32,080 bases of DNA from contig JAIFNI010000277.1 in NCBI GenBank assembly GCA_020047785.1, forward strand, positions 1-32,080. Direction: 5' to 3'. The position numbers were made by a program, and so were the translations under genes. The stretch comes from Clostridia bacterium (GTDB lineage: Bacteria > Bacillota > Clostridia > DSM-8532). The notes beneath the pieces are model-generated. The model was given only the letters and a program-made list of their open reading frames with translations, was not told where the DNA came from and searched no databases. This document shows, in pieces, positions 262 to 29,816 of the stretch. Each line of letters starts with the position of its first letter. The first letter of the stretch is position 1.

Positions 262-499
262 AGCCGGAAGAAAAAGCCTGATACAGAAAACCGGTTATAC
301 AGGGAACCTCAAAAAATGCAGAAGAAGCATCCGGTCCACAACAGGGCGGCAGCACAACGGCAGCATGTCGGAGGCGGCGGACGGCAGCGTACACCGGAGC
401 CTACATCCAGCGGGCACTCCGAGCCTGCATGAAAAGGGCATTTCAGATACGGTTCAACACATCACACGAACGAAATCAAAAACCAGGAGGAATTGTCGA

Positions 500-1705: not shown

Positions 1706-1767
1706 GCATTCGACAGCTGTTCATGCCGACAGGCACAATGGTGAGCATTCGACAGCTGTCCATGCCG
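1693..1767 (+). repeat. Tandem 36-bp repeat, two copies at 39-bp spacing, spanning the stop of the first binding protein
   Basis: Copies at 1693-1728 and 1732-1767 differ at one position. Each starts GGCACAATGGTGAGC and contains a CAGCTG palindrome (GACAGCTGTC complete in the second copy). The first copy includes the last codons and the TGA of the upstream gene, so the gene end itself was duplicated. Confidence 0.9.
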
Positions 1768-1862
1768 CATCTGGCATGGGTGTCCTCGGAATGATATCAT
1801 GGAACGGGGGGTGGTCCGATGGACTGCCTCCCGGTTCCGCGTTTCCGGTCTTTGCGGGGGTA

Positions 1863-3083
1863 ATGATGAATCGTTCAAAAGCGGGTTCGGGAAGTCTTCT
1901 TGCCGTTTTTCTGCTGGCCGGCATGCTGGGTGGTTGTTCGCAGACGGCCGTACCCGGATCCTCCGTCTCAGCCGTTCCGACCGTTACGGAACAGCCGGGT
2001 GCAAATCTTGCGGAATCCCTGCAGGTTGATGTCAGCGGACTCAAGTCCGGGGACGGTCAGCCTCTTCTGCTATACATGGAACAGAAGGAAATCCCGGAAC
2101 GCCCGACGGATCCGGACAAGCTGCCTCTGGAAGAGGCACTCCACTGGTATGACCTCGAATATGCCGGCTGGAACACCGAAAAAACCGGCATGCCGGCATC
2201 TCCCGCCGATGGGGCGACAGGAAAACAGGTCATGGTCATCATCAACGGAGACCATCCTTATCTCACAGCCTACGGCATCGGCGCGAAGAAAATCGCCGAC
2301 GCCTATGGCATGAAACTGCGCATCTATTCGCCCAATTGGGATCTGAACGTGCAGAACCAGCTGCTCGATCAGGCCATCAATGCAAAGCCGGATCTGATCG
2401 TGCTGATTCCGTTGGATGCAAAAGCCTCGGTGCAGCAGCTTCGAAAGATCAATGAAGCCGGCATTCCCTGCATCGCCAGCAACATGGTTCCCTATGCCGA
2501 CGGATTTCGCTATGTCATCGGCTGGACAGGGCCGGACGATTGGGGACAGTTCCGCATCCTGGCCAGGGAACTCGCCAAAAAACTCGGCAACGAAGGCGGC
2601 ATCTGCTACCTGCGCCATGCTCCGGGCGGTTCTCCCTTCTTTTCGAGGACATACGGCATGATAACCGAGCTGGAAAAGGTTGCGCCACATATCGTCACAC
2701 TCGACATGCAGGCGCCGGGGTTCGAAGTGGAGAAAACGACGCAGGTCGTCTCCGACTGGATTACGAAATACGGCGATCAGTTGAAGGCCATCTGCATCGC
2801 GGACGACTATACCCAGCTGACCGGTGCCCTCGATGCCTGCCGAAAGGCGGGACGGGAGGACATCATCCTGGTGGCGGCCGGAAACAGCCGGGTGGGCATG
2901 GATGCGGTCAAGGCAGGAAAATGCTTCGCCATCACCTACCAGTCCGCCGAGGCGGATGGCGCGGTGCCCATCAAGATGGCGGCCGACTGGTTCAATGGAT
3001 TGTCTGTAGAATCAGTCCGTTATCTGCCCAAGCATATCATCAAACAGGACAATGTGGACTTGTTCCTGCCGGCGCAATGGTAA
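1863..3083 (+). CDS. Sugar ABC transporter substrate-binding lipoprotein (second paralogue)
   Basis: This is a 406-residue protein from the ATG at 1863 (a second ATG directly follows at 1866). A GCGGGGG stretch at 1854-1860 is the likely ribosome binding site, rather close to the start. The frame continues upstream to 1548 without protein-like content. After a short basic start the sequence has a hydrophobic core and lipobox 'LGGC' (Cys24 counted from 1866), marking a lipoprotein. It is colinear with the gene before it across the whole mature length, sharing 'SPNWDLNVQNQ', 'LHWYDLEYAGW', 'WTGPDDWGQFRIL' and the C-terminal '(V)DLFLPAQW'. It is therefore a tandem duplicate. Differences cluster in the signal peptide and linker; binding-site divergence cannot be judged without a structure. 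It probably serves the same permease, perhaps with altered specificity. Confidence 0.87.
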   Translation: MMNRSKAGSGSLLAVFLLAGMLGGCSQTAVPGSSVSAVPTVTEQPGANLAESLQVDVSGLKSGDGQPLLLYMEQKEIPERPTDPDKLPLEEALHWYDLEYAGWNTEKTGMPASPADGATGKQVMVIINGDHPYLTAYGIGAKKIADAYGMKLRIYSPNWDLNVQNQLLDQAINAKPDLIVLIPLDAKASVQQLRKINEAGIPCIASNMVPYADGFRYVIGWTGPDDWGQFRILARELAKKLGNEGGICYLRHAPGGSPFFSRTYGMITELEKVAPHIVTLDMQAPGFEVEKTTQVVSDWITKYGDQLKAICIADDYTQLTGALDACRKAGREDIILVAAGNSRVGMDAVKAGKCFAITYQSAEADGAVPIKMAADWFNGLSVESVRYLPKHIIKQDNVDLFLPAQW

Positions 3084-3629: not shown

Positions 3630-3754
3630 CGGTCACATCGACAGGACCGGCGATGCTCAGCTCGAAAGGGATCGGTAACGTTCAGATCGAAAGGGACCGG
3701 CAGTGTTCATATCAAAAGGGACCGGCAATGTATGGAACGAAAGGGGAACACATA
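3630..3754 (+). repeat. Five-unit 25-bp tandem array between the mutarotase and URO-D-like genes
   Basis: Units begin at 3630, 3655, 3680, 3705 and 3730, exactly 25 bases apart. The middle units share a GTTCAnATCnAAAGGGACCGG core; the first and last are more diverged. The last unit has become the ribosome binding site (AAGGGGA) just before the ATG at 3754, so the array supplies the leader of the next gene. Confidence 0.85.
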
Positions 3755-14209: not shown

Positions 14210-14220
14210 AGCGGTTCGGT

Positions 14221-14316
14221 GTGCTGCTTGTCCGGTGTGCTGCTTGTCCAATGTGCTGCTTGTCCAATGTGCTGCTTGTCCAATGTGCTGCTTGTCCAAT
14301 GTGCTGCTTGTCCGGT
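14221..14316 (+). repeat. Six-unit 16-bp tandem array after the STAS gene
   Basis: Six units of GTGCTGCTTGTCCAAT start at 14221, 14237, 14253, 14269, 14285 and 14301. The four inner units are identical; the outer two end in GGT in place of AAT. The array starts 12 bases after the STAS stop and lies about 110 bases before the next gene. Confidence 0.97.
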
Positions 14317-15081: not shown

Positions 15082-15110
15082 AGGCAGACCGCATATTTTG
15101 CGGTCTGCCT
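15082..15110. terminator. Perfect 12-bp hairpin between convergent genes
   Basis: Arms AGGCAGACCGCA (15082-15093) and TGCGGTCTGCCT (15099-15110) flank a TATTT loop. On the plus strand TTTA follows, giving a weak U-tail. The right arm abuts the stop codon of the convergent sulfatase gene (15111), so the element probably serves both the exported-protein gene and the end of the sulfatase operon. Confidence 0.75.
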
Positions 15111-16511
15111 TTACGGCTTCCTCACCGGCAGAATGGCCTGCACCTCAAGACGCCATGCTTCAAGCTTTCGATGCATTTCCACTACGCGGTCCGGCAGGAT
15201 GGCAGCAAGATCGCGGATTTCCCCGATATCTTCCTCTAGATTGTACAAAGAACAACGTCCGGTTTCAAAGGTTTCCACCAGCTTCCAGGGACCGTCGCGC
15301 ATCCCGGAGCAGGGCGTGCCTCCTTGATTGCCATAGTGGGGATAATGCCAGAATATCGGACCCCGCTCCCACGATTCCGAACGCAGCAGCGGCAGAAAAC
15401 TCACCCCGTCCTTATGCTGTTCCGGTCGCAAGGGAAGTCCGGCCGCTTCCAGAAACGTCGGATAGAAATCAGGACTCGTCACAGGGGTCTCACAAAGGCT
15501 TCCGGTGGATACAACTCCCGGCCAGCGGACCAGCAGCGGTTCACGCACACCGCCTTCCGTCATCCAGCCCTTGCCTTCGGAAAGCGGCGCATTGCACGTA
15601 GGGGAGCCTTCGGCAGTCGCCAATCCCCCGTTGTCCGAAGTGAAAACAACCAGTGTGTTCTCCAGCAAACCCTCTTCCTGCAACACCTTCAGCAATTTCC
15701 CCGTATTTTCATCCAGATTGCGGATCATCGCGGCATAACCGGGATCGGATTGAAATCTGCGTCTGGTCACACGGAGATGCTGCTTATGGATGAATGGGAA
15801 CGGCTCCCCTTCTTCCAGTGCCTGCCGGGAGTCCAGACCCATCATCCTGGCTTTTTCCTCGAAATATGCGATATCTTCCTCCTTCGCCTGAATCGGGGTA
15901 TGGACCGTGTAGTGCCACAGATTCAGGAAAAAAGGACGTTCCGGCTCCTTCTTCCGGATCAACCCGATGGCCTCGTCGGTCAACCGGTCCGTCAGGTATT
16001 CCCCTTCCGGTCCATCCGGCAGGGTGACAATTCCATAAGGGCAAAAATACCCCTGCGGAGGATGACCCCAATGGCAACCGCCAATGTTCACATCAAACCC
16101 ATGTGTTTCCGGGTAGTGGGATTCCATACCCAGATGCCATTTGCCGACATGCCAGGTCTGATATCCCCCTTCGCGCAGCGCTTGCGCCACGCTGACTTCC
16201 GAATGGGGAAGCTGTTTGCGGTACGGCGCGTCCACCAGTTTCCCGCAACATGGATGATAGTTTCCGCCATGATCAATCCAGTCTGTCACCCCTACACGCG
16301 CAGGATACTTTCCGCTCATCAGGCTGGCTCTCGTTGGGGAACAGACCGGACAGGCCGCATAGGCATCGGTAAACCGCATGCCTTCCCGTGCCAGCTTATC
16401 CAGCACAGGCGTTTCATAAAAGCGGCTGCCCTGACACCCGAGATCCATCCAGCCCATGTCGTCGACAAGGATGAACAGGATATTGGGCTTTGCAGCATGC
16501 TTTCCCATCAT
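15111..16511 (-). CDS. Cys-type sulfatase 1 (last gene of the sulfatase operon)
   Basis: This 466-residue formylglycine-dependent sulfatase starts at the ATG at 16511, overlapping the stop of the gene before it by four bases (ATGA) with GGAGGAGG just upstream. The N-terminus 'KPNILFILVDDMGWMDLGC' supplies the paired metal-binding Asp (17, 18). Cys57 in 'CSPTRASLMSGKYPARVG' is the residue oxidised to formylglycine. 'VVFTSDNGG' and 'GKGWMTEGGVREPLLVRWPG' are the distal metal and substrate-side motifs of the arylsulfatase-like branch. No signal peptide precedes the core, so it should act in the cytoplasm. It removes a sulfate ester from an unknown, probably carbohydrate, substrate. The SDNG form and the GGVREP motif separate it from the other five. 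Confidence 0.93.
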   Translation of the reverse strand: MMGKHAAKPNILFILVDDMGWMDLGCQGSRFYETPVLDKLAREGMRFTDAYAACPVCSPTRASLMSGKYPARVGVTDWIDHGGNYHPCCGKLVDAPYRKQLPHSEVSVAQALREGGYQTWHVGKWHLGMESHYPETHGFDVNIGGCHWGHPPQGYFCPYGIVTLPDGPEGEYLTDRLTDEAIGLIRKKEPERPFFLNLWHYTVHTPIQAKEEDIAYFEEKARMMGLDSRQALEEGEPFPFIHKQHLRVTRRRFQSDPGYAAMIRNLDENTGKLLKVLQEEGLLENTLVVFTSDNGGLATAEGSPTCNAPLSEGKGWMTEGGVREPLLVRWPGVVSTGSLCETPVTSPDFYPTFLEAAGLPLRPEQHKDGVSFLPLLRSESWERGPIFWHYPHYGNQGGTPCSGMRDGPWKLVETFETGRCSLYNLEEDIGEIRDLAAILPDRVVEMHRKLEAWRLEVQAILPVRKP

Positions 16512-18136
16512 GCCTCCTCCGGCCAACCGAACGGCGCTCTCTGAAATGCTTGAAGAGGACCTGCATACGGCGCATGTTCGAAGTGGCAGACTTCCTGTCC
16601 TCCTTGCGTGAATAGAAACGGGCTGCTGGATGGATCTTTCTTCCTCGCGACAGCATCTTTCGGTACGCGCGGATCTGCCTGCTCCCCAAGAACCGCAAGC
16701 AACCGCTCCTCCAGCGAGCGTCGGACGACCGCATATGCCGCTTCTTCCGCCACATTGTTCATTTGCGCAGGATCCCGTTTCAAATCATACAACTCGACAA
16801 ACGGACGCCTCCCGAAGGCAAGAGAGAACGTCTCCCGCCACTGGGCCTGTTCCCGGTTCCAAATCATCCACGCCTTGGTAGGTCCGGCATCCATGTCGGC
16901 ATACACCACATGGGTATCCCCTTCCAGATGCGCATAGGGGATGGGATTCCCCCCTTCGGCCAGTATGCCCGGATCGCCCATGGGATACCGATCTGGCGCG
17001 AAGTTGACGACCAACAGATGATCCCCGGTACGGATAGCCCGTTGCGGATACGGCAAAAATCCTTCACGGGCACTGTCCACGTGCCGCTCCCGACCGGTGA
17101 CCACAGAGGTGCGCGTTGCATCCACCCACCCCTGGTCAACTCCGGAAAGGACCGGCCAAAGACTTTTCGCCGTCATGCCTTCGGGGAGGGGCACACCGGC
17201 CGCATCCAACAGTGTCGGGGCCAGGTCCATCAGGTTGACGAAGTCATGCACCACGCGTCCCCCTTGCACGCCATTCGGCCACCGGATGGCAAGCGGCACC
17301 TCCAGTCCGATGTCATACAGGTTGCATTTGGCCCGCGGCATGCCGGGAATTCCATGATCCCCGCTGACGACAATCAGGGTATTCTCCAGCTCCCCATTTT
17401 CCTCCAGGCACTGCAGCAGCACCCCCAGCCCCGCGTCCACGGCCTGGCACTCACCCAGATAGTCGTTGAAATCCTCCCGCACTTCCGCCACATCCGGCAA
17501 AAACGGCGGAAGCAGACCGGACAGTTGGTCGGGTTCCAGTCCCCAGACGGATTTTCCCGATCCCTTGTCCCAGGTCCGGTGTGTGTTGGTGGGTCCCCAC
17601 CAGTAACAGAAGGGTTGATCGGCCGGACGCGCGTCCAGAAAGGATTGGAAGTTGGCACGGACCTCTTCCAGCAGTTCCGTTTTCGCGGCGTCCATGCCAA
17701 CCTCCGGCGCCCGCCGGACCGCTTCATGGGAAAACCGGTTGAACCGGACCCCGGCTCCCTCATAGGAGGTGCGCCGCCCGCCATATGGCGCGTTGTAGCT
17801 CTTGCCTGGGCACCAAACCTTGTACGTATGGCCGATGAAGTATCCATGCTTCTCCAATTCCAGCGGAAAGGTGGGAATGGCATCATCCCATACGGCACCG
17901 AGCAGGATGGCTCCCAATCCCGTCTGCCAGAAAAAACGGCCGGACAGCAGGGAACTGCGGCAAGGGGTACAACTCGGCGCGGGAACAAAAGCGTTGTCAA
18001 ACAGGACGCCTTCAGCCGCCATCCGGTCAAAGTGCGGGGTCTCCAACAACCGGCACACACCGCCAAAAACCCCCTTGTCGGCATAGGCTCGGGCATACCG
18101 GCCCCAGTCATCGGCAAAGGCGAATAGAATGTTCAT
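16508..18136 (-). CDS. Cys-type sulfatase 2
   Basis: This 542-residue sulfatase starts at the ATG at 18136 behind AAAGGAAG; the open frame to 18199 lacks a better start. 'MNILFAFADDWGRYARAYAD' carries the metal-binding Asp9/Asp10 at the very N-terminus, leaving no room for a signal peptide. Cys56 in 'CTPCRSSLLSG' is the formylglycine site, with Cys in place of the more usual Ser at the fourth position. 'VVSGDHGIPGMPRAKCNLYDIGLEVPLAIRWP' gives the second metal site and the following conserved loop. It is longer than sulfatase 1 and has a distinct C-terminal region. The gap to the preceding operon gene is 74 bases, and its end overlaps sulfatase 1. Substrate unknown. Confidence 0.92.
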   Translation of the reverse strand: MNILFAFADDWGRYARAYADKGVFGGVCRLLETPHFDRMAAEGVLFDNAFVPAPSCTPCRSSLLSGRFFWQTGLGAILLGAVWDDAIPTFPLELEKHGYFIGHTYKVWCPGKSYNAPYGGRRTSYEGAGVRFNRFSHEAVRRAPEVGMDAAKTELLEEVRANFQSFLDARPADQPFCYWWGPTNTHRTWDKGSGKSVWGLEPDQLSGLLPPFLPDVAEVREDFNDYLGECQAVDAGLGVLLQCLEENGELENTLIVVSGDHGIPGMPRAKCNLYDIGLEVPLAIRWPNGVQGGRVVHDFVNLMDLAPTLLDAAGVPLPEGMTAKSLWPVLSGVDQGWVDATRTSVVTGRERHVDSAREGFLPYPQRAIRTGDHLLVVNFAPDRYPMGDPGILAEGGNPIPYAHLEGDTHVVYADMDAGPTKAWMIWNREQAQWRETFSLAFGRRPFVELYDLKRDPAQMNNVAEEAAYAVVRRSLEERLLAVLGEQADPRVPKDAVARKKDPSSSPFLFTQGGQEVCHFEHAPYAGPLQAFQRAPFGWPEEA

Positions 18137-18210
18137 CCCTGCTTCCTTTCTGAACTCCATGCAAACCAGCATGGCCGCATTTTTCCACCGGGTTGCCACA
18201 TATCTGCATA

Positions 18211-19740
18211 TCAGTGCAATACATCAATCTCGTAATGGGTGGAATGCAGTCCGGGGAAGCTCTCATTCTTTCGGCAGACCGGGTCTGCTGCCTGATCCAC
18301 CCACGCACCGGTCACATCCAAATCCGTATGGCCGACCGCCCGCAAACGATGTTTGATCTCGGCTTCCAGCCGATTGCGTTCCCCGTCATACCGGATATCC
18401 TCAGTCAGATTGGTCAATTCCTTCGGATCCGTCTGCAAATCGAACAGCAGGGTCTGCCCGCCGTTGAGATGGTGGATGTATTTCCACCGGCCATCCGTGA
18501 TGAAGTGCTTGGGATGGTCGCCGGAGACTTCACCCATCGCGTATCGGACAGGGTCTCCAAGTGCATGCCGTTCCATTTCCGTCGGCACCAGCAGGGTGAG
18601 GACATTGATCCCATCCGTCGGCACATCGTGCCGGACAAGAGATACGCCGGCCACCCCCATCACCGTGGGCAGTACATCACATAAGCCGACCGGGATGGCG
18701 CAACGGGTGCCCGGCTGCCAGCCGAACGGGGCTGCAAGCGGCATCCCCTCCGAAGAAGGGGCGGACTCCTTGTTTCCGATGGATTTTGGCGGTTTGACAA
18801 TGAACGGGACATGGGCGCTGCCTTCAAAGAACATGGCCTTGCCGTATCCGTGGTGGTCGCCGAACATCTCCCCATGATCCGAGGTCAGGAGGATCATGGT
18901 TTCCTCCCAGATGCCCATTTCATTCAAGCGCGCGAACAGACGGCCCAGGTTGTAGTCGATTTGGGTAATGAGGCCATAGTAGGCCCGAAGCGCGTCATCC
19001 CGGACATCACGGGGCAGGAAATCCTCCGGGTGTCCGCGATCATCCCAGATATGGCCGGCTTTGTCGTTCAGACCTTCCGTCCAGTCCCCCACGGCCGGTT
19101 CAGGCACCTGTTTGTCCCGATACATCGAGTAATAGGGCTCCGGCGGATCCAAGGGAGGGTGCGGCTTTGAAAAACTGGTCCAGAGAAAGAACGGACAGGT
19201 GGGGTCGCGCGTTTCCAGAAAATCGATGGATTCGTCCACTGTCCAGGCGGTCAGGGTCTGCGGCTCCGCCACTGTGGCCATGGCGGGATACATCTCATTC
19301 TGTCCGATGCCATGCATCATCGGCCGGCCAAGGTGCGGGTGTTTCTCCATGTACCGGTAATAATCCCTGGGAAGACGGACGGAATCGAACCCGTACCTGG
19401 CTCGTTCCGGCCAGAAATGCATCTTGCCGACCGCATGCGTCTGATAGCCCGCGCCGGAAAGCAATCCGGGCAGGGAACGTGCCGGATCCACCGCCAGCGG
19501 CTCCCGATCCTGATAGTAGGCATGCTGGTAGCTGGCAGCCCTCAGCCCGTTCATGAGTGTCCACCGTGCCGGAATGCAGACAGGACAGTCCGAATAGGCA
19601 CTGGTAAACGCAATGCCGTTCCGCACAAGATGATCGATGTGCGGAGTGCGGATTAAAGGATTTCCCAGCGATCGGATGGTGTCAAACCGCTGCTGATCCG
19701 TCGTGATGAGCAGAATGTTGGGACGTTTTTTCATTTCCAT
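18211..19740 (-). CDS. Cys-type sulfatase 3
   Basis: This is a 509-residue protein. I chose the ATG at 19740 because AAGGAGG sits five bases upstream; 19734 and an upstream start at 19785 are less well placed. 'KKRPNILLITTDQQRFD' provides the N-terminal metal site and Cys55 in 'CIPARWTLMNG' is the formylglycine site. Its context differs from the common C-x-P-S-R by Ala at the fourth position and Trp-Thr after the Arg, yet Cys, Pro and Arg are kept. 'LLTSDHGEMFGDHHGYGKAMFFEGSAHVPFIV' is the distal metal motif. No signal peptide is visible. It resembles the DQQR group of sulfatases together with sulfatase 6. Substrate unknown. Confidence 0.92.
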   Translation of the reverse strand: MEMKKRPNILLITTDQQRFDTIRSLGNPLIRTPHIDHLVRNGIAFTSAYSDCPVCIPARWTLMNGLRAASYQHAYYQDREPLAVDPARSLPGLLSGAGYQTHAVGKMHFWPERARYGFDSVRLPRDYYRYMEKHPHLGRPMMHGIGQNEMYPAMATVAEPQTLTAWTVDESIDFLETRDPTCPFFLWTSFSKPHPPLDPPEPYYSMYRDKQVPEPAVGDWTEGLNDKAGHIWDDRGHPEDFLPRDVRDDALRAYYGLITQIDYNLGRLFARLNEMGIWEETMILLTSDHGEMFGDHHGYGKAMFFEGSAHVPFIVKPPKSIGNKESAPSSEGMPLAAPFGWQPGTRCAIPVGLCDVLPTVMGVAGVSLVRHDVPTDGINVLTLLVPTEMERHALGDPVRYAMGEVSGDHPKHFITDGRWKYIHHLNGGQTLLFDLQTDPKELTNLTEDIRYDGERNRLEAEIKHRLRAVGHTDLDVTGAWVDQAADPVCRKNESFPGLHSTHYEIDVLH

Positions 19741-19781
19741 GGGTTCCTCCTTCATTTCCGAGCTTCCGGAATGCTGCAGGT

Positions 19782-21269
19782 TCACCCGCGCATGTCCGGC
19801 TGGTGAGGCACCACGTCGCCTGTTTCCAGAAAAAAGGTGAGCATCCGTTCCTTCAGTTGCATCAGGACCTCACGCAAGGCGGGATCTCCGATGCGGTTGT
19901 GCAGTTCTCCCGGGTCCGCAACGAGATCATACAATTCGTCCGACTCATACAGGCGGCGCACATACTTGTGGGTCTCCGTCCGAACCATGACCGCCTTCGT
20001 ATGCTCCGGCCCCTCGGATTGCTGCAGGCTGACACGCGGCCAATACAGGTTGTCCGGGTTCTCGATGCCATGTTCCATGCAATGGGTTTCCCCATGTATG
20101 CGGCCGCCTTCGCAGAATACGGCATCCCGATGCGTTTCCGTTTCTTTGGCCAGAAGGGGCAGCAGTGATCTGCCAAAATGGGTATGCGCAGGCTTGATGC
20201 CGCACAACGCTTCCACAGTGGCAGGAAAGTCCACCAGTTCCACCAGCGCGTCCCGGATGCCCGGCTGCAAAGCGGTTCCCGCCGGCGGCTTGATGAGGAA
20301 GGGAACGTTTGTCAGGCAGTCTTCGAAGGTATTCTGCGTTTTCTCCACCAGTCCGTAATCGCCGGTGAAATCTCCATGGTCACTGAAGACGAACACCGCC
20401 GTATCGTCATAAATGCCCTTGCGCTTCAATGCGTCCATCAGCAGGCCGAACTGAGCATCAATCCGGCTGCACATGCCGTAATAGGTGGCGCGGAGCTCGC
20501 GGAAACGCTCCGGGGTCCATCCCTGCAGGCGCTGGCGTTCCCGGATGCCCTTGAGCAAAGAGGGTTTTCCGATCCAGCCTTCCGGTACCTGCAGCGGCAT
20601 GGGCACCTTCTCCCGGTCAATAGCGGAAAACCATGGCTCTTCCACCCCATATGGTGGATGCGGGTACAACAAAGGCAGATACAAACACAGCGGCTCGTCT
20701 TCCGGCGCATTCCGGATGAAATCGATGGCGCCCAGCACATGGTCCCAGTCCGAATCTGGATAGTGATCCGGGATGTTGTGTTCTTTGTCGCCCTCCACAA
20801 CATCCGTCAACCGGCCAGCAAGGAAGGAGAACCAATTGTCGCCCTCCTTGTCACCCCGCCAGGCCAAATCCCGGTGCAGGTTTCGCGCGGTCGGCTGTCC
20901 CGGATGCTTGATGTCGCAGAACGCGCCATACCCGTCCTGCCCCGGCACCAGATCGTTCTTGCCTCCCCACCAGACTGTGTACCCTTCCTGCTTGAGGGTT
21001 TTCAACAGGACCGGCTCATCGTCGTGCAGCATGTGAAACATCGTACGATGCCCGTTTACATGCGAATACCAGCCGGTCATGAAGCTGCAGCGGCTGGGCG
21101 TGCACACCGGATTCTGGCAGAAGGCATTCCGGAAGGAAACCCCGTCCGTATGTGCCAGCCTGTCCAGATGCGGGGTCACCGCGGCTGGATTGCCCAAATG
21201 ACCCAGGGCATCCGCCCTGAACTGGTCCGGGTTGAAAATGAGGATATGCGGACGTTTTGACTTACCCAT
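19782..21269 (-). CDS. Cys-type sulfatase 4
   Basis: This 495-residue sulfatase starts at the ATG at 21269, seven bases after AAGGAG; the frame extends to 21308 without another good site. 'KRPHILIFNPDQFRADALGHLGN' holds the N-terminal metal ligand region, and Cys56 in the canonical 'CTPSRCSFMTGWYSHVNGH' is the formylglycine site. The distal motif reads 'VFVFSDHGDFTGDYGLVEK'. The 'NPDQFRADALGH' start is characteristic of a sulfatase group related to choline and glycan sulfatases, but I cannot name the substrate. No signal peptide. A 34-bp tandem repeat lies in the 108-base gap before its start, and 41 bases separate it from sulfatase 3. Confidence 0.93.
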   Translation of the reverse strand: MGKSKRPHILIFNPDQFRADALGHLGNPAAVTPHLDRLAHTDGVSFRNAFCQNPVCTPSRCSFMTGWYSHVNGHRTMFHMLHDDEPVLLKTLKQEGYTVWWGGKNDLVPGQDGYGAFCDIKHPGQPTARNLHRDLAWRGDKEGDNWFSFLAGRLTDVVEGDKEHNIPDHYPDSDWDHVLGAIDFIRNAPEDEPLCLYLPLLYPHPPYGVEEPWFSAIDREKVPMPLQVPEGWIGKPSLLKGIRERQRLQGWTPERFRELRATYYGMCSRIDAQFGLLMDALKRKGIYDDTAVFVFSDHGDFTGDYGLVEKTQNTFEDCLTNVPFLIKPPAGTALQPGIRDALVELVDFPATVEALCGIKPAHTHFGRSLLPLLAKETETHRDAVFCEGGRIHGETHCMEHGIENPDNLYWPRVSLQQSEGPEHTKAVMVRTETHKYVRRLYESDELYDLVADPGELHNRIGDPALREVLMQLKERMLTFFLETGDVVPHQPDMRG

Positions 21270-21295
21270 GCCGGTCTCCTTTTTATCCTGTCTTT

Positions 21296-21363
21296 GCGAA
21301 ACAATCAAAAGTCTCTGCTGATGCTTCCCGCGAAGCAGTCAAAAGTCTCTGCTGGTGCTTCCC
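21296..21363. repeat. Tandem 34-bp duplication between sulfatases 5 and 4
   Basis: Copies at 21296-21329 and 21330-21363 share GCGAA-CA-TCAAAAGTCTCTGCTG-TGCTTCCC with three differences; a few bases of a third copy follow. The second copy carries GAAGCA and TGCTTC arms that could pair. The array ends 14 bases downstream of the sulfatase 5 stop codon on the minus strand. Confidence 0.9.
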
Positions 21364-21377
21364 TCGAAGTATCATGT

Positions 21378-22838
21378 CTATTCGAACTCACGGGGATGGC
21401 GGCGCTTGAGCTCGGGAATGGCGTACCCGCGCCCTGTTTTCTCCAGATATTCGCAATAGGATTTCAAATGGCCACGGGCATGGTAGGGACCGCCTTCCTG
21501 CAGGACAATCCGCATGGGGTCCGTCGGGTTTTCCATTGTCCGCATCATTTCATCGTGCCAGCCGGTCAGCCGGTACACGGCCTCCAGGCAGACATCCCTG
21601 CGTGCCTCGGCCAGATTGACCTGTTCATGCGGATCTTCAATGAGGTTGAACAGCATCTCTTCCGGAAACAGATGGAAGCCGTCGTGATAGGTCCGGATGT
21701 ACAGCCAGTCGTCGAACCGGACGCTTCTCTGGCAGACATGCGCGTTCTGGCTCAGCACCAGATGGCTTCGGCCGCAATCGGCTCCGGTTTGCAGCGCATC
21801 GGCAAAGCTTTGACCGTCCCAGCTCTTCATGCGGGGCTGCCCAAACAGATCCGCCAGCGTCGGGGCCAGATCGAGATTGTAGTGCAGTCCATTGTCCACA
21901 TGGCCCTGCTTTGCGCCCGGCCAGCGGATAATCATGGGTATGCGGCAGGTGATCTGGTCCGCCGTGCCATGTTCCGCATACATACCCAACTCTCCAAGGT
22001 TCTCGCCATGATCGGCCGTGACGATGATGGCCAGATCCTCCAGCACGCCCTTGCGCTCCAGCGCTTCGAGCAACTGTCCGATATGTCCGTCCATATAACG
22101 GATGCCGCAGTCATAGCCATCGATCACACGCCGCAATCCCGCCTGATCCCGCGCCTCTCCGGGTTGGCGGGGTAGATTGGGATTTTCCTTGTTGTCATAC
22201 ATGCTGATTTCCAGGGACCCGTGCGGGCCGACTCTCCGGTTGTGGTCCGCCAGCACCTCATCCGTCAACCAGGCAGGCAGCGGATCATCCTGGAACGGAT
22301 CGCCGAATTCGGCAGGTGCCCGGTACGGGGTATGGGGGTCCCAGTAATTGATGTGCAGGAACCAGTCTTCCTGGTCCGCGTTTCGTTCTATCCAGTCCAA
22401 CGCGACAGGGGTGATCTCCTCAGCGGATTCGCCGCCGCCCTTGCCCGTGTTGTGCATTTCCGTGAACCCGGCATAAAAGGTCCAGGCCGAGTGCCTTTCC
22501 GCAAAGGGACTGATGGAAGCTGTCCGATACCCGGCTCGCCGGAAGACGGTGGGCAGGCTCTCAAAAGCCAGCGTATCCCGGAAATCGCGCGGGGGGCCTT
22601 CCAGCCTGAAATCTGCGGTGGTTCCGCCATGCCCGATTGCACCGGTGTGAATGCCGAACCGGCCGCTCATCAACGCGGCGCGGGAAGGCAGACAGGGCGC
22701 GTCCGAACAGTAGTAGTTGTCGAACCGGACTCCTTGCGCGGCAATCCGATCGATGTTCGGTGACGTGTTTCTCGGATAGCCATAGCAGCCGAGGTGGTCG
22801 GGACGCAGAGTGTCGAGGTCCAGAAACAGGATTCTCAT
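21378..22838 (-). CDS. Cys-type sulfatase 5
   Basis: This 486-residue sulfatase has its ATG at 22838 eight bases after AAGGAGGG. 'MRILFLDLDTLRPDHLGCYGYPRNTSPNIDRIAAQG' starts directly with the metal-binding Asp7/Asp9, so no signal peptide is present. Cys49 in 'CLPSRAALMSGRFG' is the formylglycine site and 'IIVTADHGENLGELGMYAEHG' the distal metal motif. The 'LDLDTLRPDHLGCYGY' start is typical of the heparan-sulfamidase/glucosamine-sulfatase-like branch, but the substrate class here is only suggested. Downstream lies a 34-bp repeat; upstream, a 198-base gap holds a 30-bp array and a dispersed palindrome, making this the loosest joint in the operon and a possible internal promoter position. Confidence 0.92.
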   Translation of the reverse strand: MRILFLDLDTLRPDHLGCYGYPRNTSPNIDRIAAQGVRFDNYYCSDAPCLPSRAALMSGRFGIHTGAIGHGGTTADFRLEGPPRDFRDTLAFESLPTVFRRAGYRTASISPFAERHSAWTFYAGFTEMHNTGKGGGESAEEITPVALDWIERNADQEDWFLHINYWDPHTPYRAPAEFGDPFQDDPLPAWLTDEVLADHNRRVGPHGSLEISMYDNKENPNLPRQPGEARDQAGLRRVIDGYDCGIRYMDGHIGQLLEALERKGVLEDLAIIVTADHGENLGELGMYAEHGTADQITCRIPMIIRWPGAKQGHVDNGLHYNLDLAPTLADLFGQPRMKSWDGQSFADALQTGADCGRSHLVLSQNAHVCQRSVRFDDWLYIRTYHDGFHLFPEEMLFNLIEDPHEQVNLAEARRDVCLEAVYRLTGWHDEMMRTMENPTDPMRIVLQEGGPYHARGHLKSYCEYLEKTGRGYAIPELKRRHPREFE

Positions 22839-22883
22839 GTGTTTTCCCTCCTTGGTTCGTAACGCGTGATTCCTTCGGATTCC

Positions 22884-22927
22884 TTCATGGCCACTCGCAA
22901 AAGCGAGGGGTCACACCGGAATCATCC
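22884..22927. repeat. Dispersed palindromic element, copy 2
   Basis: ACTCGCAAAAGCGAG forms a hairpin with an AAAA loop. The flanks (TTCATGGCC before; TCACACCGGAATCAT after) match, in reverse complement, the sequence around the first hairpin at 8480-8497 (GCATGACA before; ACACCAGCATCAT after). The two copies are about 14 kb apart in opposite orientation. Confidence 0.55.
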
Positions 22928-22930
22928 TTT

Positions 22931-23020
22931 CATAGTCCGTAGTTGTTTGCTCGCTGTTGTCATAATCCGTGGTTGTTTGCTTGCTGTTGTCATAATCTGT
23001 GACTGTTTACTTGCTGTTGT
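22931..23020. repeat. Three-unit 30-bp tandem array between sulfatases 6 and 5
   Basis: Units at 22931-22960, 22961-22990 and 22991-23020 share CATAATC-GTG--TGTTTGCTTGCTGTTGT with a few differences each. On the minus strand the array starts 16 bases after the sulfatase 6 stop codon (23037) and lies between two operon genes. Confidence 0.93.
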
Positions 23021-23036
23021 CAGACCAAACGCTGCG

Positions 23037-24461
23037 TCAATAGGCTGCCGTCTTTTCCCTGCAGGGATAAGCAGCCTCACGCGTCCGAATCAGCATCCGC
23101 CTGCGCATTTCCGAAAGAACGGACAGCATGGATGCATCCATGACTTCGGGGTGGAGTGGTGACAGTTCCTTCGGATCCGCCTTCATGTCAAACAACATTT
23201 CTCTCCCCTCCGCATCCAGGCAGTACTTGTATTCCTCTGTCCGGAGCATGGTCTGATGCCCTCCGTGCGGCTCGAAAAACTCGACCAGAACATCCTCGCG
23301 ATGCCATTTCGTCGCGTTCACCAGCAAACCGGCCATGCTTTTCCCCTGCACAAAGGACGGGCTCTGGATTCCGCACCAGTCCAGTATGGTTGGAACCACA
23401 TCAACCCCCTCGCACAGCGCGTCGACATGCTGATTGGCAGGTATGCGTCCCGGATGCCGCAGGATCAGGGGAACATTCACAATGCAGTCATGCCCCGGCA
23501 TGCCTTTCTGAATCCGGCCATGGTCCCCCAGGTATTCCCCGTGGTCGCTGGTGAAGAGGACGAGGGTGTCCTCAGACCGTCCAGCCGCTTCCAGCGAATC
23601 GAGAATGCGCCCGACACAATCATCCACATGAGAGACGAGGGCCAGATAGTATGCGGCCACGTGCCGCCATTCCTCCTCGGACAGCGCGGCAAGATTCCGG
23701 GTCCAGGGTTCCTCCAGCCCTTTTACAGGAAGCGGAAGTTCCGCGGAATCATACATATCCACAAAACGCTGCGGCGGATTCACCGGTGTATGCGGCGCGT
23801 AAAAGCCCGCGATGGCGAAAAAGGGTCGCCCATCACGCGTCGTTTCAAGAAAACGGCAGGTCTCCGCTGCCACGAATGCGCTGTGTGTCAGGTCTTCATC
23901 ACCGGCAAACGGGTAGGGTTCATGGGTTTCCCGACCCACATCGCTGTAGACGGGCCGCCCATATTCCAGTGCAGCAGGGGGCAACGCGGTTCGCACCTTT
24001 TCCACCTGATCAGGCGCTATCGATTGAACCCAGCGGGTATAGGCATCATCATAACACCCCGGCTCATCCGACAGCACAAAGGTTTCAAACCCGTAATCCG
24101 GATGCGGGTCCCGATGGTCACGCCGCGCATGCGGCTGGAAATGCAGTTTCCCGATCTGGGCGGTTCGATAGCCGTAGGGCCGCAGGATTTGCTGGATGGA
24201 CACCGCATCCTCCGGGAAAGGGATGCCGTTGGTTCCGATTCCCAGAGAGGAGCAGTATCGGCCGGACAGCATCGACATTCTGCTGGGCATGCAGACCGGG
24301 TTGTTCACAAAATACCGTGAGAACCGGGTGCCTTCCTGCGCGAGCCGGTCCAGATTCGGAGTTTTCGCATACGGACTGCCGAAGCATCCCAAAGAATCCA
24401 GCCGTTGCTGATCGGTATAAATCAACAGGACACTGGGACGTTCAAAGGTTCTGGGTTTCAT
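23037..24461 (-). CDS. Cys-type sulfatase 6
   Basis: This 474-residue sulfatase starts at the ATG at 24461, inside the last 20 bases of the maturase gene, with GAAGGAG about nine bases upstream. An ATG at 24479 is a less likely alternative, and the long open frame to 24842 is only a shadow of the maturase gene. 'ERPSVLLIYTDQQRLDSLGCFGSPYAKTPNLDRLAQEG' gives the metal site, Cys57 in 'CMPSRMSMLSGRYC' the formylglycine site and 'VLFTSDHGEYLGDHGRIQKGM' the distal motif. The C-terminal 'RTEEYKYCLDAEGREMLFDMKADPKEL' is typical of the DQQR sulfatase group. No signal peptide. The overlap with the maturase suggests translational coupling of enzyme and activator. Confidence 0.93.
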   Translation of the reverse strand: MKPRTFERPSVLLIYTDQQRLDSLGCFGSPYAKTPNLDRLAQEGTRFSRYFVNNPVCMPSRMSMLSGRYCSSLGIGTNGIPFPEDAVSIQQILRPYGYRTAQIGKLHFQPHARRDHRDPHPDYGFETFVLSDEPGCYDDAYTRWVQSIAPDQVEKVRTALPPAALEYGRPVYSDVGRETHEPYPFAGDEDLTHSAFVAAETCRFLETTRDGRPFFAIAGFYAPHTPVNPPQRFVDMYDSAELPLPVKGLEEPWTRNLAALSEEEWRHVAAYYLALVSHVDDCVGRILDSLEAAGRSEDTLVLFTSDHGEYLGDHGRIQKGMPGHDCIVNVPLILRHPGRIPANQHVDALCEGVDVVPTILDWCGIQSPSFVQGKSMAGLLVNATKWHREDVLVEFFEPHGGHQTMLRTEEYKYCLDAEGREMLFDMKADPKELSPLHPEVMDASMLSVLSEMRRRMLIRTREAAYPCREKTAAY

Positions 24462-25584
24462 GCGGAGCACTCCTTCCATACAGGGCTGCGACCTGTCGCA
24501 ATCCGGGCAGGGCATGGGCAAAAAATATCCGGTAGGCATCACAATGCAGATTCTTTCCGGGCATGCCGTTCTGGAAGGGTTCCCGATAGCGCCGGCAGCC
24601 CCCGCGGCACAGCGTCCGCCATTCGCAGCATGCACAGGCGGGATCCTCAGGCAGGGAATCCTCGATGAAACGTTTGGCAGGTTCAGACTCGCGCATTTCA
24701 ACAAAGCCATCGGTGAGGATGCTCCCGATTTTCCACGCGTCCAGCACATAGAAATCACATGGGTAGACACCGCCGTCCGCCTCCACGACAAATTGGCAGG
24801 TGCAGCGGCCCGACATGCCGCAGGCTTCAGGTGGTGCGCCAAGCATCATGCCGGCCAGGTTGTCGAACCACCGGATGCTGACAGGGGTCCGCTTCAAAGC
24901 GTCTTCCTTCCATAGGTCAAACGTTGTGATGAGGAAGGCTGCATACCGTTCCGGCGTCAAGGAATGCGCCCGGGTGAACGGTGTTTCGCCAAACGGATCC
25001 AGGCAGGGGATGAACTGCAGATATTCAAAACCTTCCTGCTTGAAGAAACGGTAGATCTTGGCCGCATGCCGTGCGGACCAGCCGGTTACGACGGAGAGGA
25101 TGTTGAATTCCGCACCGGCTGTCTTCAGGTTCCCGATGGCTGCCATCACACGGTCAAAAGACCCTTTCTCTTTTGCATCAACCCGGTTTGCGTCATGAAT
25201 GTCCCGCGGTCCGTCCAGGGAGATGCCAGTCAAAAAATGGTTCTTTGCGAGAAAGCGTGCCCACGATGCATCGATGGCGATGCCGTTGGTCTGGATGGCG
25301 TTGTGGATATGCACTTTTTTTATGTTGTACTGCTGCTGCAACGCCACGACACGCTCGAAGAAAGGAAGTCCGGCCACTGTCGGTTCGCCCCCCTGAAACG
25401 CGAACGTGCAGTCGCCGTCCGCGAAGGCCAGGGCCTTGCGGACAAGCGTCTCAAGCGCTGCCTCGTTCATGATGCCGTGTGAAGGCGTGGCGCGGTTTTC
25501 CGCGACATCATGATAGAAACAGTAGCGGCAATCCAGGTTGCACAGGCTGGAGGCGGGTTTGATCAGCAGACTCAGCGGTGGCAT
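24442..25584 (-). CDS. Anaerobic sulfatase-maturating enzyme (radical SAM/SPASM)
   Basis: This 380-residue protein starts at the ATG at 25584 behind AAGGAGAG. The radical SAM cluster motif is 'CNLDCRYCFY' (Cys15, Cys19, Cys22), and 'FAFQGGEPT' and 'SLDGPRDIHD' are the SAM-binding and Asp-containing segments of anSME proteins. The C-terminal SPASM region has 'CGMSGRCTCQFVVEADGGVYPCDFYV', then 'CACCEWRTLCRGGCRRY' and a final 'LHCDAY', enough Cys for two auxiliary iron-sulfur clusters. anSME oxidises the sulfatase active-site Cys (or Ser) to formylglycine without oxygen. All six sulfatases encoded after it are Cys-type, so one maturase can serve them all. It lies 12 bases after the second CHR gene. 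Confidence 0.95.
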   Translation of the reverse strand: MPPLSLLIKPASSLCNLDCRYCFYHDVAENRATPSHGIMNEAALETLVRKALAFADGDCTFAFQGGEPTVAGLPFFERVVALQQQYNIKKVHIHNAIQTNGIAIDASWARFLAKNHFLTGISLDGPRDIHDANRVDAKEKGSFDRVMAAIGNLKTAGAEFNILSVVTGWSARHAAKIYRFFKQEGFEYLQFIPCLDPFGETPFTRAHSLTPERYAAFLITTFDLWKEDALKRTPVSIRWFDNLAGMMLGAPPEACGMSGRCTCQFVVEADGGVYPCDFYVLDAWKIGSILTDGFVEMRESEPAKRFIEDSLPEDPACACCEWRTLCRGGCRRYREPFQNGMPGKNLHCDAYRIFFAHALPGLRQVAALYGRSAPHETQNL

Positions 25585-25596
25585 GCGTTCTCTCCT

Positions 25597-26214
25597 TCAC
25601 CAGGTTGTTTGAATGTATGACAGCAGAAGCGGCAGACCGGCGTACAGCAGGATGCCGGATACTGCCGCCACCGCAATGAGCAATACCGGGTGCAGCTTCC
25701 AGCGGACCAGCAGGAACAGAAAAACCGCGAACAAGGCCAATCCAACCCAATCCACCGCGGCGAAAGGATTTGCGGTAATTGCGGACCAGAGCGGCGTATG
25801 CTCGGGTACGCGAAGCAGCGCGGTCCTGGAGATGGAGATGGCGGCGGCTGCGATCAATCCGGTCACGGTCGGACGGATGCAGTGGAAAATGGATTTCTGA
25901 AGCGGATGGGTCCGAAACTTGAAGAAAAATGCGGACAAAAACAGGATCAGCAACACGGAAGGCATAGCCACGCCCAAAGTTGCCACGAGGCCGCCGAAAA
26001 AGCCGGAAACGCGGAAACCCACAAAGGTGGCCGCATTGACGGCAATGGGACCGGGTGTCATTTCCGAGATGGCGATGATGTCCACGAACTGGGCGGCCGT
26101 CAACCAGCCATGTGCTTCAAGTTCATGCTGAATCAGTGGGATCATGGCGTATCCACCGCCAAAACTGAAGAGTCCGATTTTGAAGAAAGTGGTGAACAGC
26201 AGCAGGAGGTTCAT
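25597..26214 (-). CDS. Single-domain CHR family transporter, second half (ChrA-like)
   Basis: This 205-residue membrane protein starts with an ATG at 26214 that overlaps the previous stop by four bases (ATGA). 'FFKIGLFSFGGGYAMIPLIQHEL' and 'ISEMTPGPIAVNAATFVGFRVSGFFG' are the two signature segments of CHR (chromate ion transporter) domains. Several hydrophobic helices follow. Short CHR proteins are normally encoded in pairs and work as heterodimers, and here the partner is the gene before it. The classical role is chromate efflux, with sulfate as the natural analogue. Being cotranscribed with six cytoplasmic sulfatases, sulfate is the more likely cargo here. The transport function is established for the family; the cargo is inferred. 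Confidence 0.88.
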   Translation of the reverse strand: MNLLLLFTTFFKIGLFSFGGGYAMIPLIQHELEAHGWLTAAQFVDIIAISEMTPGPIAVNAATFVGFRVSGFFGGLVATLGVAMPSVLLILFLSAFFFKFRTHPLQKSIFHCIRPTVTGLIAAAAISISRTALLRVPEHTPLWSAITANPFAAVDWVGLALFAVFLFLLVRWKLHPVLLIAVAAVSGILLYAGLPLLLSYIQTTW

Positions 26215-26978
26215 GGTTTGGTTCCCCCCTTCTGATGTTCCGCTTCGGAATCCGGAACGGCTGATGAAGTTTCCGCAACTCCGTCCGGAAGGTTCCGGTC
26301 CCCAGGCAACGGTGTTTCATCCATGTTTCTGTCTTCATCCGGCTGCAGCTTTTTGTCATGCTTCATCAACCGGCTCATCCAGGAAGGAGCTGCAAAATGC
26401 AGAACCAACCCCAGTGCCGCAGAACCGACAATTGCATACAGGGCATGCACACGCAGCACCACAACCAGAAAAACTGCGGAGATGGCCAGCAGCCATCCCA
26501 CCCAGTCCCGGACAGCGCTTTTCCCCACTTTCCATACCGCCAGCACCATCAAGGCGGCAACTGCCGGGCGGATTCCAAGGAAGGCCGCCTGAACAACCGG
26601 CTCATCCTGAAACCGGGCGAAAAAGGCGGCGATGAGGGTGATGGTGACAAACGAAGGCAGGATCACACCAGCTGTGGCGGCCAAAGCACCCGGTGTCCCG
26701 CGCAGCCGCCGACCGATCAGGGTGGCCGCGTTGATGGCAATGGCACCGGGAACAGTCTGGGCAAGCGCCAGAACATCGACAATCTCCTGATCCTCTATCC
26801 ATCGCCGATTCTCCACCATTTCACGGTGAATCAGCGGAATCATGGCGTATCCGCCACCGAACGTGAACAACCCGATCTTGAAGAAAACGGAAAACAGTTC
26901 ACCGCAGTCAGGCAGGGTCTGCAGGATGTCTGGCTCGGGATTCGTTTGTTTTGATTTATTCTGGATTTTCCTGGTCAT
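26211..26978 (-). CDS. Single-domain CHR family transporter, first half (ChrA-like)
   Basis: This 255-residue protein starts at the ATG at 26978, overlapping the ROK gene stop by four bases, with AAGGAT upstream. After a hydrophilic 30-residue N-terminus the CHR core shows 'FFKIGLFTFGGGYAMIPLIHREM' and 'ALAQTVPGAIAINAATLIGRRLRGTPGALAA', close to those of the partner gene. About five hydrophobic segments follow. The last 50 residues are hydrophilic and charged, unlike the partner, and may be cytoplasmic. The pair is arranged as in known short-chain CHR systems. The four-base overlaps at both ends indicate tight translational coupling with the ROK regulator and the second half. Confidence 0.88.
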   Translation of the reverse strand: MTRKIQNKSKQTNPEPDILQTLPDCGELFSVFFKIGLFTFGGGYAMIPLIHREMVENRRWIEDQEIVDVLALAQTVPGAIAINAATLIGRRLRGTPGALAATAGVILPSFVTITLIAAFFARFQDEPVVQAAFLGIRPAVAALMVLAVWKVGKSAVRDWVGWLLAISAVFLVVVLRVHALYAIVGSAALGLVLHFAAPSWMSRLMKHDKKLQPDEDRNMDETPLPGDRNLPDGVAETSSAVPDSEAEHQKGGTKP

Positions 26979-28276
26979 GACGCACCATCCTTCTTTTTCA
27001 GGAACAAGTCTAACACATAGGCGGCTGCCCCGGTTGCAATCGCCCATTCCCCCATATGTCCATCCCGTTCGAACCGCACCGGTTTTTCCGGGTTCGTCTG
27101 AAGGAGACGTTGCGCGGATGCGACCGCTGTTCTGTAGAACCGGCCGGAACGCCTGACAAGCGGACCGCTTAGAATGACCAGCCTGGTATTGGTCATGCGG
27201 ACAAGATTGACCAGACCGACGCCAAAAGCGGCTGCAGCCCTGTCAAGACGCGCTGCCATCTCCAGCCCGGTCGTATTGTCCGGATGCGCCGTGTGTATGT
27301 CGCCCTGCGCGATTGTTTTCGTGCCGATCCGGGTGCCGCCCTGTAGCCTGTCATGCTGATGCTGTTCATCTTGCCTGTCGATTGTCTCCAGCAAGTCTCC
27401 AACGGACTGGATATCCATTCGTTTTTCCGCATTTGTGTTTTTTGAAAGAATTTCTGCCATAGCGGGGAGTGTCGCGAAGGTTTCCATGCACCCATGATTT
27501 CCGCACGAGCAAAGCGTTCCGTTGAGGTCGACAGACAAATGGCCGAACGCATCGGGCTGTTCACCTATGAATCGAAGGATTTCCCCTCTGGACAGGATGC
27601 CAGTCCGTATGCCCATGCCCAGATGGATGCATACGAGCGTGCCGCAACCCTGACCGCTTCCGGCAAGCCGTTCCGCGAGCACTGCCAGGTTTGCGCCATT
27701 GTCCATATGCACCGGGATGTCCAGGCGTTCCGACAACATGCCTGATATCGGTACATCCTGCCATCCTTCATGTAAGAAACCTGTTGAACTTCGGATAATC
27801 CCCCTGGCGCAGTCAAGCGAACCGACCGTGCCCAGGCCGATTCCCGGTATGTCGGCCGGCAAAACGCCCTGACGGGCCATCGCCTCGTGCATGCAGCACG
27901 AGATTTTATCCGCAGTCTCATCCGGCCCATAACCCGCATCGAGTGGAAACCGGATCTGTTCGACCGGTTCCAGATCGGGGCGGCAAAAGAGGATGCGAAC
28001 CTCCGTTCGGGACAATTCAACGCCGACCAGCAGTCCTGCGTTCTTTCCGATGCCGTATAAAGCAGGTCTTCTGCCTCCACCGGACAGGTCTGCGCCCATC
28101 TGGGAGATCAAACCGTTCTGCTCAAGGCTGCCTGTCAAACGGTGCATGGAACTTGAAGAAAGACCCGTTTTCTCCTGCAGACGCTGTCGGGTTGCGGGAC
28201 CGTTGTACCGCAGCAGGGTCAGCAGCGCACGTTCATTTACATCCAATTGTTGAAGACGTTCGGGAAACGTCGGCAT
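26975..28276 (-). CDS. ROK family transcriptional regulator (NagC/XylR-type)
   Basis: This 433-residue protein starts at the ATG at 28276, eight bases after AAGGAG; an upstream in-frame start at 28321 has no such site. The N-terminal 70 residues form a winged helix ('LTLLRYNGPATRQRLQEKTGLSSSSMHRLTGSLEQNGLI'). The rest is a ROK sugar-binding domain with 'GIGLGTVGSLD', the ligand/ATP-type segment 'HMDNGANLAVLAER', and the zinc motif 'CSCGNHGCMETF'. ROK regulators of this layout usually repress sugar catabolic operons until a sugar or sugar phosphate binds. As first gene of the sulfatase operon it probably controls its own transcription. A segment around residues 290-340 is unusually hydrophilic and His/Gln-rich for the family. 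Confidence 0.92.
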   Translation of the reverse strand: MPTFPERLQQLDVNERALLTLLRYNGPATRQRLQEKTGLSSSSMHRLTGSLEQNGLISQMGADLSGGGRRPALYGIGKNAGLLVGVELSRTEVRILFCRPDLEPVEQIRFPLDAGYGPDETADKISCCMHEAMARQGVLPADIPGIGLGTVGSLDCARGIIRSSTGFLHEGWQDVPISGMLSERLDIPVHMDNGANLAVLAERLAGSGQGCGTLVCIHLGMGIRTGILSRGEILRFIGEQPDAFGHLSVDLNGTLCSCGNHGCMETFATLPAMAEILSKNTNAEKRMDIQSVGDLLETIDRQDEQHQHDRLQGGTRIGTKTIAQGDIHTAHPDNTTGLEMAARLDRAAAAFGVGLVNLVRMTNTRLVILSGPLVRRSGRFYRTAVASAQRLLQTNPEKPVRFERDGHMGEWAIATGAAAYVLDLFLKKKDGAS

Positions 28277-28529
28277 TTCAAGACTCCTTACAGGATTTCC
28301 TGGTGATTCGCCGCGAAGCAAGTTGAGTTACCCGTGAATCGGTGAGATTGAGCAGGCGCAATAAGGAAGCACACCGCAAGCTTGACGCACGTCATTTCTT
28401 CAGTTTAGCGACTTATTCCCAAAATGGCAAGAAGAAAAGAAAACGGGTGAACACCATGATGGACGCGTACCCGGCCCGTACAGCAGTTGTAAAAGGAAAA
28501 CATCGAGTTGGTTCGTGCCGCTAACCAAC
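28277..28529. promoter_or_regulatory. Upstream region of the sulfatase operon, otherwise without a gene
   Basis: This stretch lies between the ROK start and the Fic remnant. It holds the promoter candidate at 28402-28430 and, at 28306-28316, a near-palindrome TTCGCCGCGAA about 30 bases before the ROK start that could be an operator. At its right edge AGTTGGTT (28506-28513) pairs with AACCAACT (28523-28530). I see no coding sequence here. Confidence 0.4.
28402..28430 (-). promoter_or_regulatory. Candidate sigma-70-type promoter of the ROK-CHR-sulfatase operon
   Basis: On the minus strand TTGCCA (28430-28425) and TAAACT (28407-28402) are separated by 17 bases, matching the consensus at five and four of six positions. 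It would give a leader of roughly 120 bases before the ROK start. Confidence 0.45.
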
Positions 28530-29658: not shown

Positions 29659-29757
29659 GATGCAGAATCTGTCTGTTCCCTTGTGGAACAGGATGCGGAG
29701 CCTGTCTGTTCCCTTGTAGAACAGGATGCAGAGCCTGTCTGTTCCCTTGTCGAACAT
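29659..29757. repeat. Three-unit 33-bp tandem array between the MBL and PHP genes
   Basis: Units at 29659-29691, 29692-29724 and 29725-29757 share GATGCAGAGCCTGTCTGTTC followed by CCTTGT-GAACAG, with few differences. The unit length is a multiple of three, so on the minus strand an open frame through it gives an 11-residue repeat with the core KGTDR. The array lies in the divergent gap, 91 bases from the MBL start and 59 from the PHP start. Confidence 0.95.
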
Positions 29758-29816
29758 CATGCGAACCCGCGAGGCGAGGCGGTCACAACGCCAGCACAGG
29801 AAATGAGGACCGGGAT

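Follow-up and report, generated by a model that had tools for sequence, protein, structure and literature searches.

What does a pair of proteins of the chromate transporter (CHR) family do between a sugar-type regulator and a set of sulfatases? The question is raised by ten genes that occupy much of a 32,080-nt stretch of DNA (hereafter the window) and that encode a ROK regulator, two CHR proteins, an anaerobic sulfatase-maturating radical SAM enzyme (anSME) and six sulfatases. The first-pass annotation had read the locus as a self-contained operon for desulfation inside the cell and had given the CHR pair no role, although this pair is the operon's most informative part. The reading that we favour, and hold to be rather likely, is that of a cytoplasmic desulfation operon repressed by the ROK protein, in which the CHR pair exports the released sulfate. 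In this best explanation, the host is an anaerobic, Clostridia-like bacterium.

The families of the ten genes and their common orientation were borne out by gene calls and by Pfam and NCBIfam matches, all ten being confirmed in place and strand (28276 to 15111, minus strand; Table 1; gene starts and ends are likely calls). From 5' to 3', the order is ROK, CHR1, CHR2, anSME, S6, S5, S4, S3, S2, S1. As had also been noticed, the junctions are mostly short gaps or overlaps: the overlap is 4 bp at ROK/CHR1, CHR1/CHR2 and S2/S1 and 20 bp at anSME/S6, and the remaining gaps measure 12, 41, 74, 108 and 198 bp. All ten genes are presumably carried on a single transcript. No Rfam match was found. The window contains short tandem repeats, mostly intergenic, with 2 to 6 copies of units of 16-39 bp (22930-23022, 21296-21369, 14220-14313, 29669-29763, 3633-3745 and 1684-1767); two of them lie within the operon, one in the S6-S5 interval and one in the S5-S4 interval.

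Table 1. Genes and putative control elements of the operon, in the direction of transcription
Feature	Position	Strand	Remarks
25-bp palindrome, candidate ROK operator (ACTTATTCCCAAAATGGCAAGAAGA on the + strand)	28411..28435	-	common to other ROK/CHR loci
Putative promoter, TTGCCA-17-TAAACT	28402..28430	-	consensus match; overlaps the operator; same layout in L082, L084, L150
ROK regulator, N-terminal winged helix	26975..28276	-	PF00480, E=1.5e-26; HTH_24
CHR1, short CHR (chromate transporter family) subunit	26211..26978	-	PF02417, E=8e-55; member of the anSME/ROK-linked CHR clade
CHR2, second short CHR subunit	25597..26214	-	PF02417, E=4e-50; charge bias opposite to CHR1
anSME, anaerobic sulfatase-maturating radical SAM enzyme	24442..25584	-	above NF010321 and TIGR03942 cut-offs
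Sulfatase S6, motif CMPSR	23037..24461	-	PF00884; no signal peptide predicted
Sulfatase S5, motif CLPSR	21378..22838	-	PF00884; no signal peptide predicted; near relatives in L154, L097, L085, L137
Sulfatase S4, motif CTPSR	19782..21269	-	PF00884; no signal peptide predicted
Sulfatase S3, motif CIPAR	18211..19740	-	PF00884; no signal peptide predicted
Sulfatase S2, motif CTPCR	16508..18136	-	PF00884; no signal peptide predicted
Sulfatase S1, motif CSPTR	15111..16511	-	PF00884; close solved relatives 6ust, 9fo1
Perfect 10-bp hairpin, putative transcript end	15083..15109	-	read from the sequence; directly 3' of the S1 stop; no T-run

By domain and motif, S1 to S6 are assigned to the S1-type, formylglycine-dependent sulfatases and are predicted to hydrolyse sulfate esters. 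They match PF00884 with 100 to 187 bits (cut-off 25; E=1e-28 to 1e-54), and all six carry the formylglycine motif (C/S-x-P/A-x-R) in its Cys form, which fits maturation by anSME. Pairwise identity among them is mostly 22-28% over long alignments, and this low mutual identity makes it likely that they differ in specificity. The match of S3 to S6 with the structures of PehA and phosphonate monoester hydrolase is good, and the GK(W/M/L)H segment is missing from S5 and replaced by GKND in S4, from which one could argue that some of the six cleave phosphonate or phosphate esters and that the operon is not purely one of desulfation. We consider this quite unlikely: every one of the six is far under the PehA cut-off, each carries the Cys-type formylglycine motif and is encoded in one operon with anSME, and for S1 there is a very close relative among solved sulfatases (6ust, 630 bits over 457 residues; 456 bits with the S1_16 carrageenan sulfatase 9fo1).

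The sulfatases of the operon, taken as sulfate-ester hydrolases, begin some 1-10 residues ahead of the first catalytic strand, and the original statement that they start at the catalytic core without a signal peptide stands. Alternative starts do not change this. The in-frame extensions upstream of S1 to S6 reach a peak hydropathy of -0.3 to 2.0, against 2.7-3.3 for the lipoprotein signals of the window; by this comparison, no hydrophobic signal-like segment was found in any extension reachable from ATG, GTG or TTG, the upstream peak of S2 (1.98) lying 5' of its first possible start. That these enzymes lack export signals is a sound prediction, and neither signal peptides nor SusCD or other import genes, which mark an exported, Bacteroides-type glycan sulfatase locus, are found in the operon. 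The contrast that had been drawn with exported sulfatases holds against the periplasmic enzymes of Bacteroides (PMC9067506), but not against the organism's own relatives. Nearly all of the ~80 sulfatases read in the sampled related genomes begin at the catalytic core, and those with a clear signal or anchor segment come only from L091, L107 (two), L108 and L140. A missing signal peptide is normal among these relatives.

Enzymes of the anSME family activate sulfatases without oxygen. The one in the operon, with radical SAM (PF04055) and SPASM domains, scores 466.8 bits with NF010321 (cut-off 441) and 388.3 bits with TIGR03942 (cut-off 349.45). It is the only anSME copy in the source assembly (3.92 Mb, 332 contigs, 75% complete), which holds 15 matches to PF00884, 13 of them at E<=1e-25. 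Therefore, as far as this 75%-complete assembly goes, the single anSME would serve more than the six sulfatases whose activation had been ascribed to it. Maturation by an FGE was rejected for this genome, since no match to PF03781 was found in the 75%-complete assembly. Nor can the operon be called self-contained, Pfam and NCBIfam finding no importer and no glycosidase among its ten genes. GH88 genes are present elsewhere in the genome; a link between them and the operon would be guesswork, and they were not adopted as partners. The second CHR locus of the genome (L016), also lying elsewhere, encodes a fused protein of ~413 aa. Within the window, two tandem paralogous lipoprotein sugar-binding proteins (PF13407) are encoded at 494-3083, with no permease genes after them in the window, and a gene for a transposase/nuclease of the PD-(D/E)XK family (PF12784; 5017-6075, minus strand) is flanked by two URO-D family genes. 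In G001, a genome of the same genus, an anSME 73% identical to the window's is directly followed by an S5 ortholog (L012, 5743-7460), which is 79% identical at its start but whose reading frame is interrupted by deletions and a stop codon; ABC-2 efflux genes lie upstream of this anSME, and ROK and CHR genes are absent there.

The CHR proteins form a short-chain pair: CHR1 (255 aa) and CHR2 (205 aa) are adjacent and have one PF02417 domain each. A simple positive-inside count of K and R (13:4 for CHR1, 1:6 for CHR2) supports their insertion into the membrane in opposite orientation, and the opposite bias is seen in most, not all, relatives. Sequence searches turned up no solved CHR relative, and since the structure modelled for CHR2 with AlphaFold2 (mean pLDDT 77) was without a neighbour in the PDB, the model is silent on the substrate. 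A search of named genomes with CHR1 returned only two distant CHR loci, both without sulfatases.

More is learned from the neighbourhoods of anSME genes. These were sampled blind to CHR in 61 close relatives, 391 class genomes and 399 phylum genomes, and ~85 loci were read. A same-strand CHR pair lies within 3.5 kb of anSME in seven loci besides the window, where the density of CHR pairs predicts 0.13 (Poisson P ~1e-10 with the window left out, an estimate that ignores relatedness); ~77 of the 85 loci have no CHR alongside. The order is ROK-CHR-CHR-anSME, as in the window, in L082 and L084, CHR-CHR-anSME in L083, anSME-CHR-CHR in L081, PTS-sulfatase-anSME-CHR-CHR in L152 and PTS-sulfatase-anSME-ROK-CHR-CHR in L150, while L154 has anSME, a divergent ROK, CHR-CHR, FGE, AraC and a sulfatase. 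The seven loci belong to five other families (six with the window), and the CHR-linked anSMEs are scattered across the anSME tree. Six families, varied gene orders and scattered anSMEs point to a functional coupling rather than to a single inherited block. This coupling is frequent, not obligatory, since CHR proteins of the clade described below occur without anSME in some genomes and the anSME of the congener stands without ROK and CHR. Of the gene order as first described, the ROK-CHR-CHR-anSME part recurs in related genomes, but the coupling is absent from most anSME loci, that of G001 included.

Several loci were left out of this count. G032 (L003) appeared linked when judged by distance, but has opposite-strand genes between anSME and CHR. 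CHR genes near sulfatases without anSME (L057, L077, L080, L085) were kept out of the statistics; two of these genomes carry 17 and 31 sulfatases, which makes chance proximity sizeable. Long fused CHR proteins directly adjoin a sulfatase in L080 (900-3975) and L085 (2024-5049), and in L077 (3028-10033) a fused CHR lies in a region with a sulfatase, ABC permeases and a NagA-like deacetylase; the three fused proteins are ~490-515 aa long. L154 (3231-10513) clusters both maturases, FGE-type (PF03781) and anSME, with ROK, the CHR pair, the AraC regulator and an S5-like sulfatase.

The regulator is a ROK protein (PF00480) with an N-terminal winged helix (HTH_24), below the NagC and Mlc equivalog cut-offs and 28-35% identical to the CHR-adjoining ROK proteins of L082, L084, L150 and L154. 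Eight clade members have a 25-bp palindrome with the consensus ACTTATTNCCAAAATGGNAATAAGT upstream of their ROK or CHR genes: the window, L035, L082, L084, L150 and L154, with two additional, weaker cases in L070 and L025, the latter brought to light by the scan. The six top-scoring sites in the 2.57 Mb scanned are the six upstream of ROK/CHR genes, in six different genomes, with leave-one-out scores of 27.9-33.1 against 24.6 for the best unrelated site; no such operator was found upstream of other sulfatases in these 2.57 Mb of loci. The palindrome is likely the binding site of the ROK protein. In four of the loci (the window, L082, L084 and L150), the -35 element of a putative promoter of the form TTGCCA-17-TA...T lies within the palindrome. 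Scans for promoters and terminators gave counts no higher than in shuffled sequence, so that the evidence for the promoter is its layout conserved across genomes.

When 59 CHR pairs were concatenated for a tree, the pairs of the window and of six of the seven linked loci grouped in one 12-member clade (UFBoot 97), that of L152 lying just outside it, in a 14-member clade with a support of 60. A profile of the clade was searched in the 391 class genomes with a line at 240 bits, an approximate value drawn from leave-one-out scores. At or above this line are 17 of the 391 genomes, with anSME in 11, as against 51 of the 374 others (Fisher P=4e-6); when the five genomes that entered the profile through linkage are removed, anSME is found in 6 of 12 clade-positive genomes (P=0.004).

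The same clade suggests another history, in which the CHR pair would be an exporter of more general use, for anions or for chromate/sulfur homeostasis, controlled by a ROK that responds to sugar, the ROK-CHR unit being ancestral and anSME and sulfatases later passengers that profit from its promoter. L025 (8676-11343) and L070 (998-3490) have ROK, the CHR pair and the operator with no anSME or sulfatase nearby, and a unit that stands alone in this way hints at a wider role of the clade. The absence of anSME from 6 of the 17 clade-positive class genomes and the regulation of CHR pairs with sulfur status in other Clostridia (PMC5640608) agree with this history. It has to explain, however, why the adjacency to anSME is repeated in differing gene orders and why the clade is enriched in genomes with anSME, and we judge it unlikely. 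G009 has ROK, CHR and operator with no above-cut-off anSME and no sulfatase match; together with the six anSME-less genomes and the congener G001, it indicates that the module exists, or once existed, independently of sulfatases and that other exporters may serve elsewhere.

A dedicated exporter would complete the following scheme. Judging from its family, the ROK protein on its operator would block the promoter until a sugar ligand arrives, and a sugar derived from the substrate would probably free the palindrome over the -35 element. One transcript would then give anSME and the six sulfatases, and anSME would convert the motif Cys of the latter to formylglycine in the absence of oxygen. Sulfated compounds, probably sugars, would be brought in by importers whose genes lie elsewhere; PTS importers adjoin sulfatase, anSME and CHR in L150 and L152. 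In the cytoplasm the sulfatases would release sulfate, which the CHR pair, its subunits presumably in opposite orientation, would expel. The ROK ligand, the importer and the sulfatase substrates are part of this proposal. The idea of an intracellular desulfation module, put forward at the outset, is supported, as one with a single maturase and one likely regulator-driven promoter, and its ROK-CHR-CHR-anSME part recurs in other genomes; the import of sulfated sugars that came with it is conjecture.

Since the CHR pair recurs beside anSME in other bacteria, it probably pumps out the sulfate released. The choice of sulfate as the substrate follows from its similarity to chromate, which enters cells as a sulfate analogue (PMC8940164), from the view that YwrBA of B. 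subtilis co-extrudes sulfate (PMC8940164) and from the genomic coupling. The direction of transport is unreadable from sequence and the operon has no other transporter, which could mean that the CHR pair works inward and supplies the pathway with an anion, either sulfate or some small sulfated compound. This seems very improbable to us: L150 and L152 already have PTS importers beside the same CHR-anSME-sulfatase set, chromate efflux is the function of those CHR proteins that have been studied (PMC8940164, PMC5640608), and a cell importing sulfate would find desulfation pointless as a source of it.

Whether sulfate export by the window's pair can be generalized, such that in Bacillota-type anaerobes the paired short-CHR clade serves the sulfatase pathways of the cytoplasm as their dedicated exporter of sulfate, under a related ROK acting through the 25-bp operator, is in our estimate evenly balanced. 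If true, CHR proteins would gain a physiological role besides chromate resistance, and the missing waste-disposal step of intracellular desulfation would be supplied. This would bear on the role of CHR transporters in anaerobes that rarely meet chromate, and on the way in which cells that desulfate in the cytoplasm dispose of sulfate. The operator sequence and the gene set could serve as markers for intracellular desulfation pathways in such anaerobes, where exported sulfatases are not the rule.

Every protein family of the operon is already known, and the new part is the ROK-CHR-CHR-anSME arrangement; among 5.39 million open-access papers searched by text, a set that leaves most subscription papers outside, none was found to link CHR transporters with sulfatases or anSME. 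The glycosaminoglycan and mucin sulfatase loci (PULs) of Bacteroides likewise combine several S1 sulfatases with a regulator for glycan desulfation (PMC9067506), but with periplasmic or surface sulfatases and SusCD importers, whereas none of the window's sulfatases is predicted to be exported and its operon has no importer. Closer to the CHR pair are YwrB and YwrA of B. subtilis, with their regulator ChrS: paired one-domain CHR proteins from adjacent genes, of opposite topology, with a cognate regulator and an efflux thought to include sulfate (PMC8940164, PMC5640608). Theirs is an Lrp-type regulator and a function in chromate resistance, whereas the window has a ROK, anSME and sulfatases in one operon. 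From the chromate equivalogs ChrA and ChrB (NF053760, NF053759), the pair is set apart by scores of 70-94 bits, far below the cut-off of 250. The anSME matches over its full length, with 409 bits, the solved anSME 4k36/4k37, which we take, with the whole series 4k36-4k39, to be that of Clostridium perfringens. Both have to do with Cys-type sulfatases, and the window's differs in sharing an operon (co-transcription being presumed) with a CHR pair, a ROK and six sulfatases. Finally, exporters also occur in organosulfur catabolism, an example being the sulfate exporter that Rein et al. (2005, cited in PMC12890257) reportedly described in the dissimilation of sulfolactate by Paracoccus. There, as we propose for the window, catabolism would come with an exporter dedicated to the inorganic sulfur anion that it frees, the Paracoccus pathway being one of a sulfonate and the window's one of sulfate esters.
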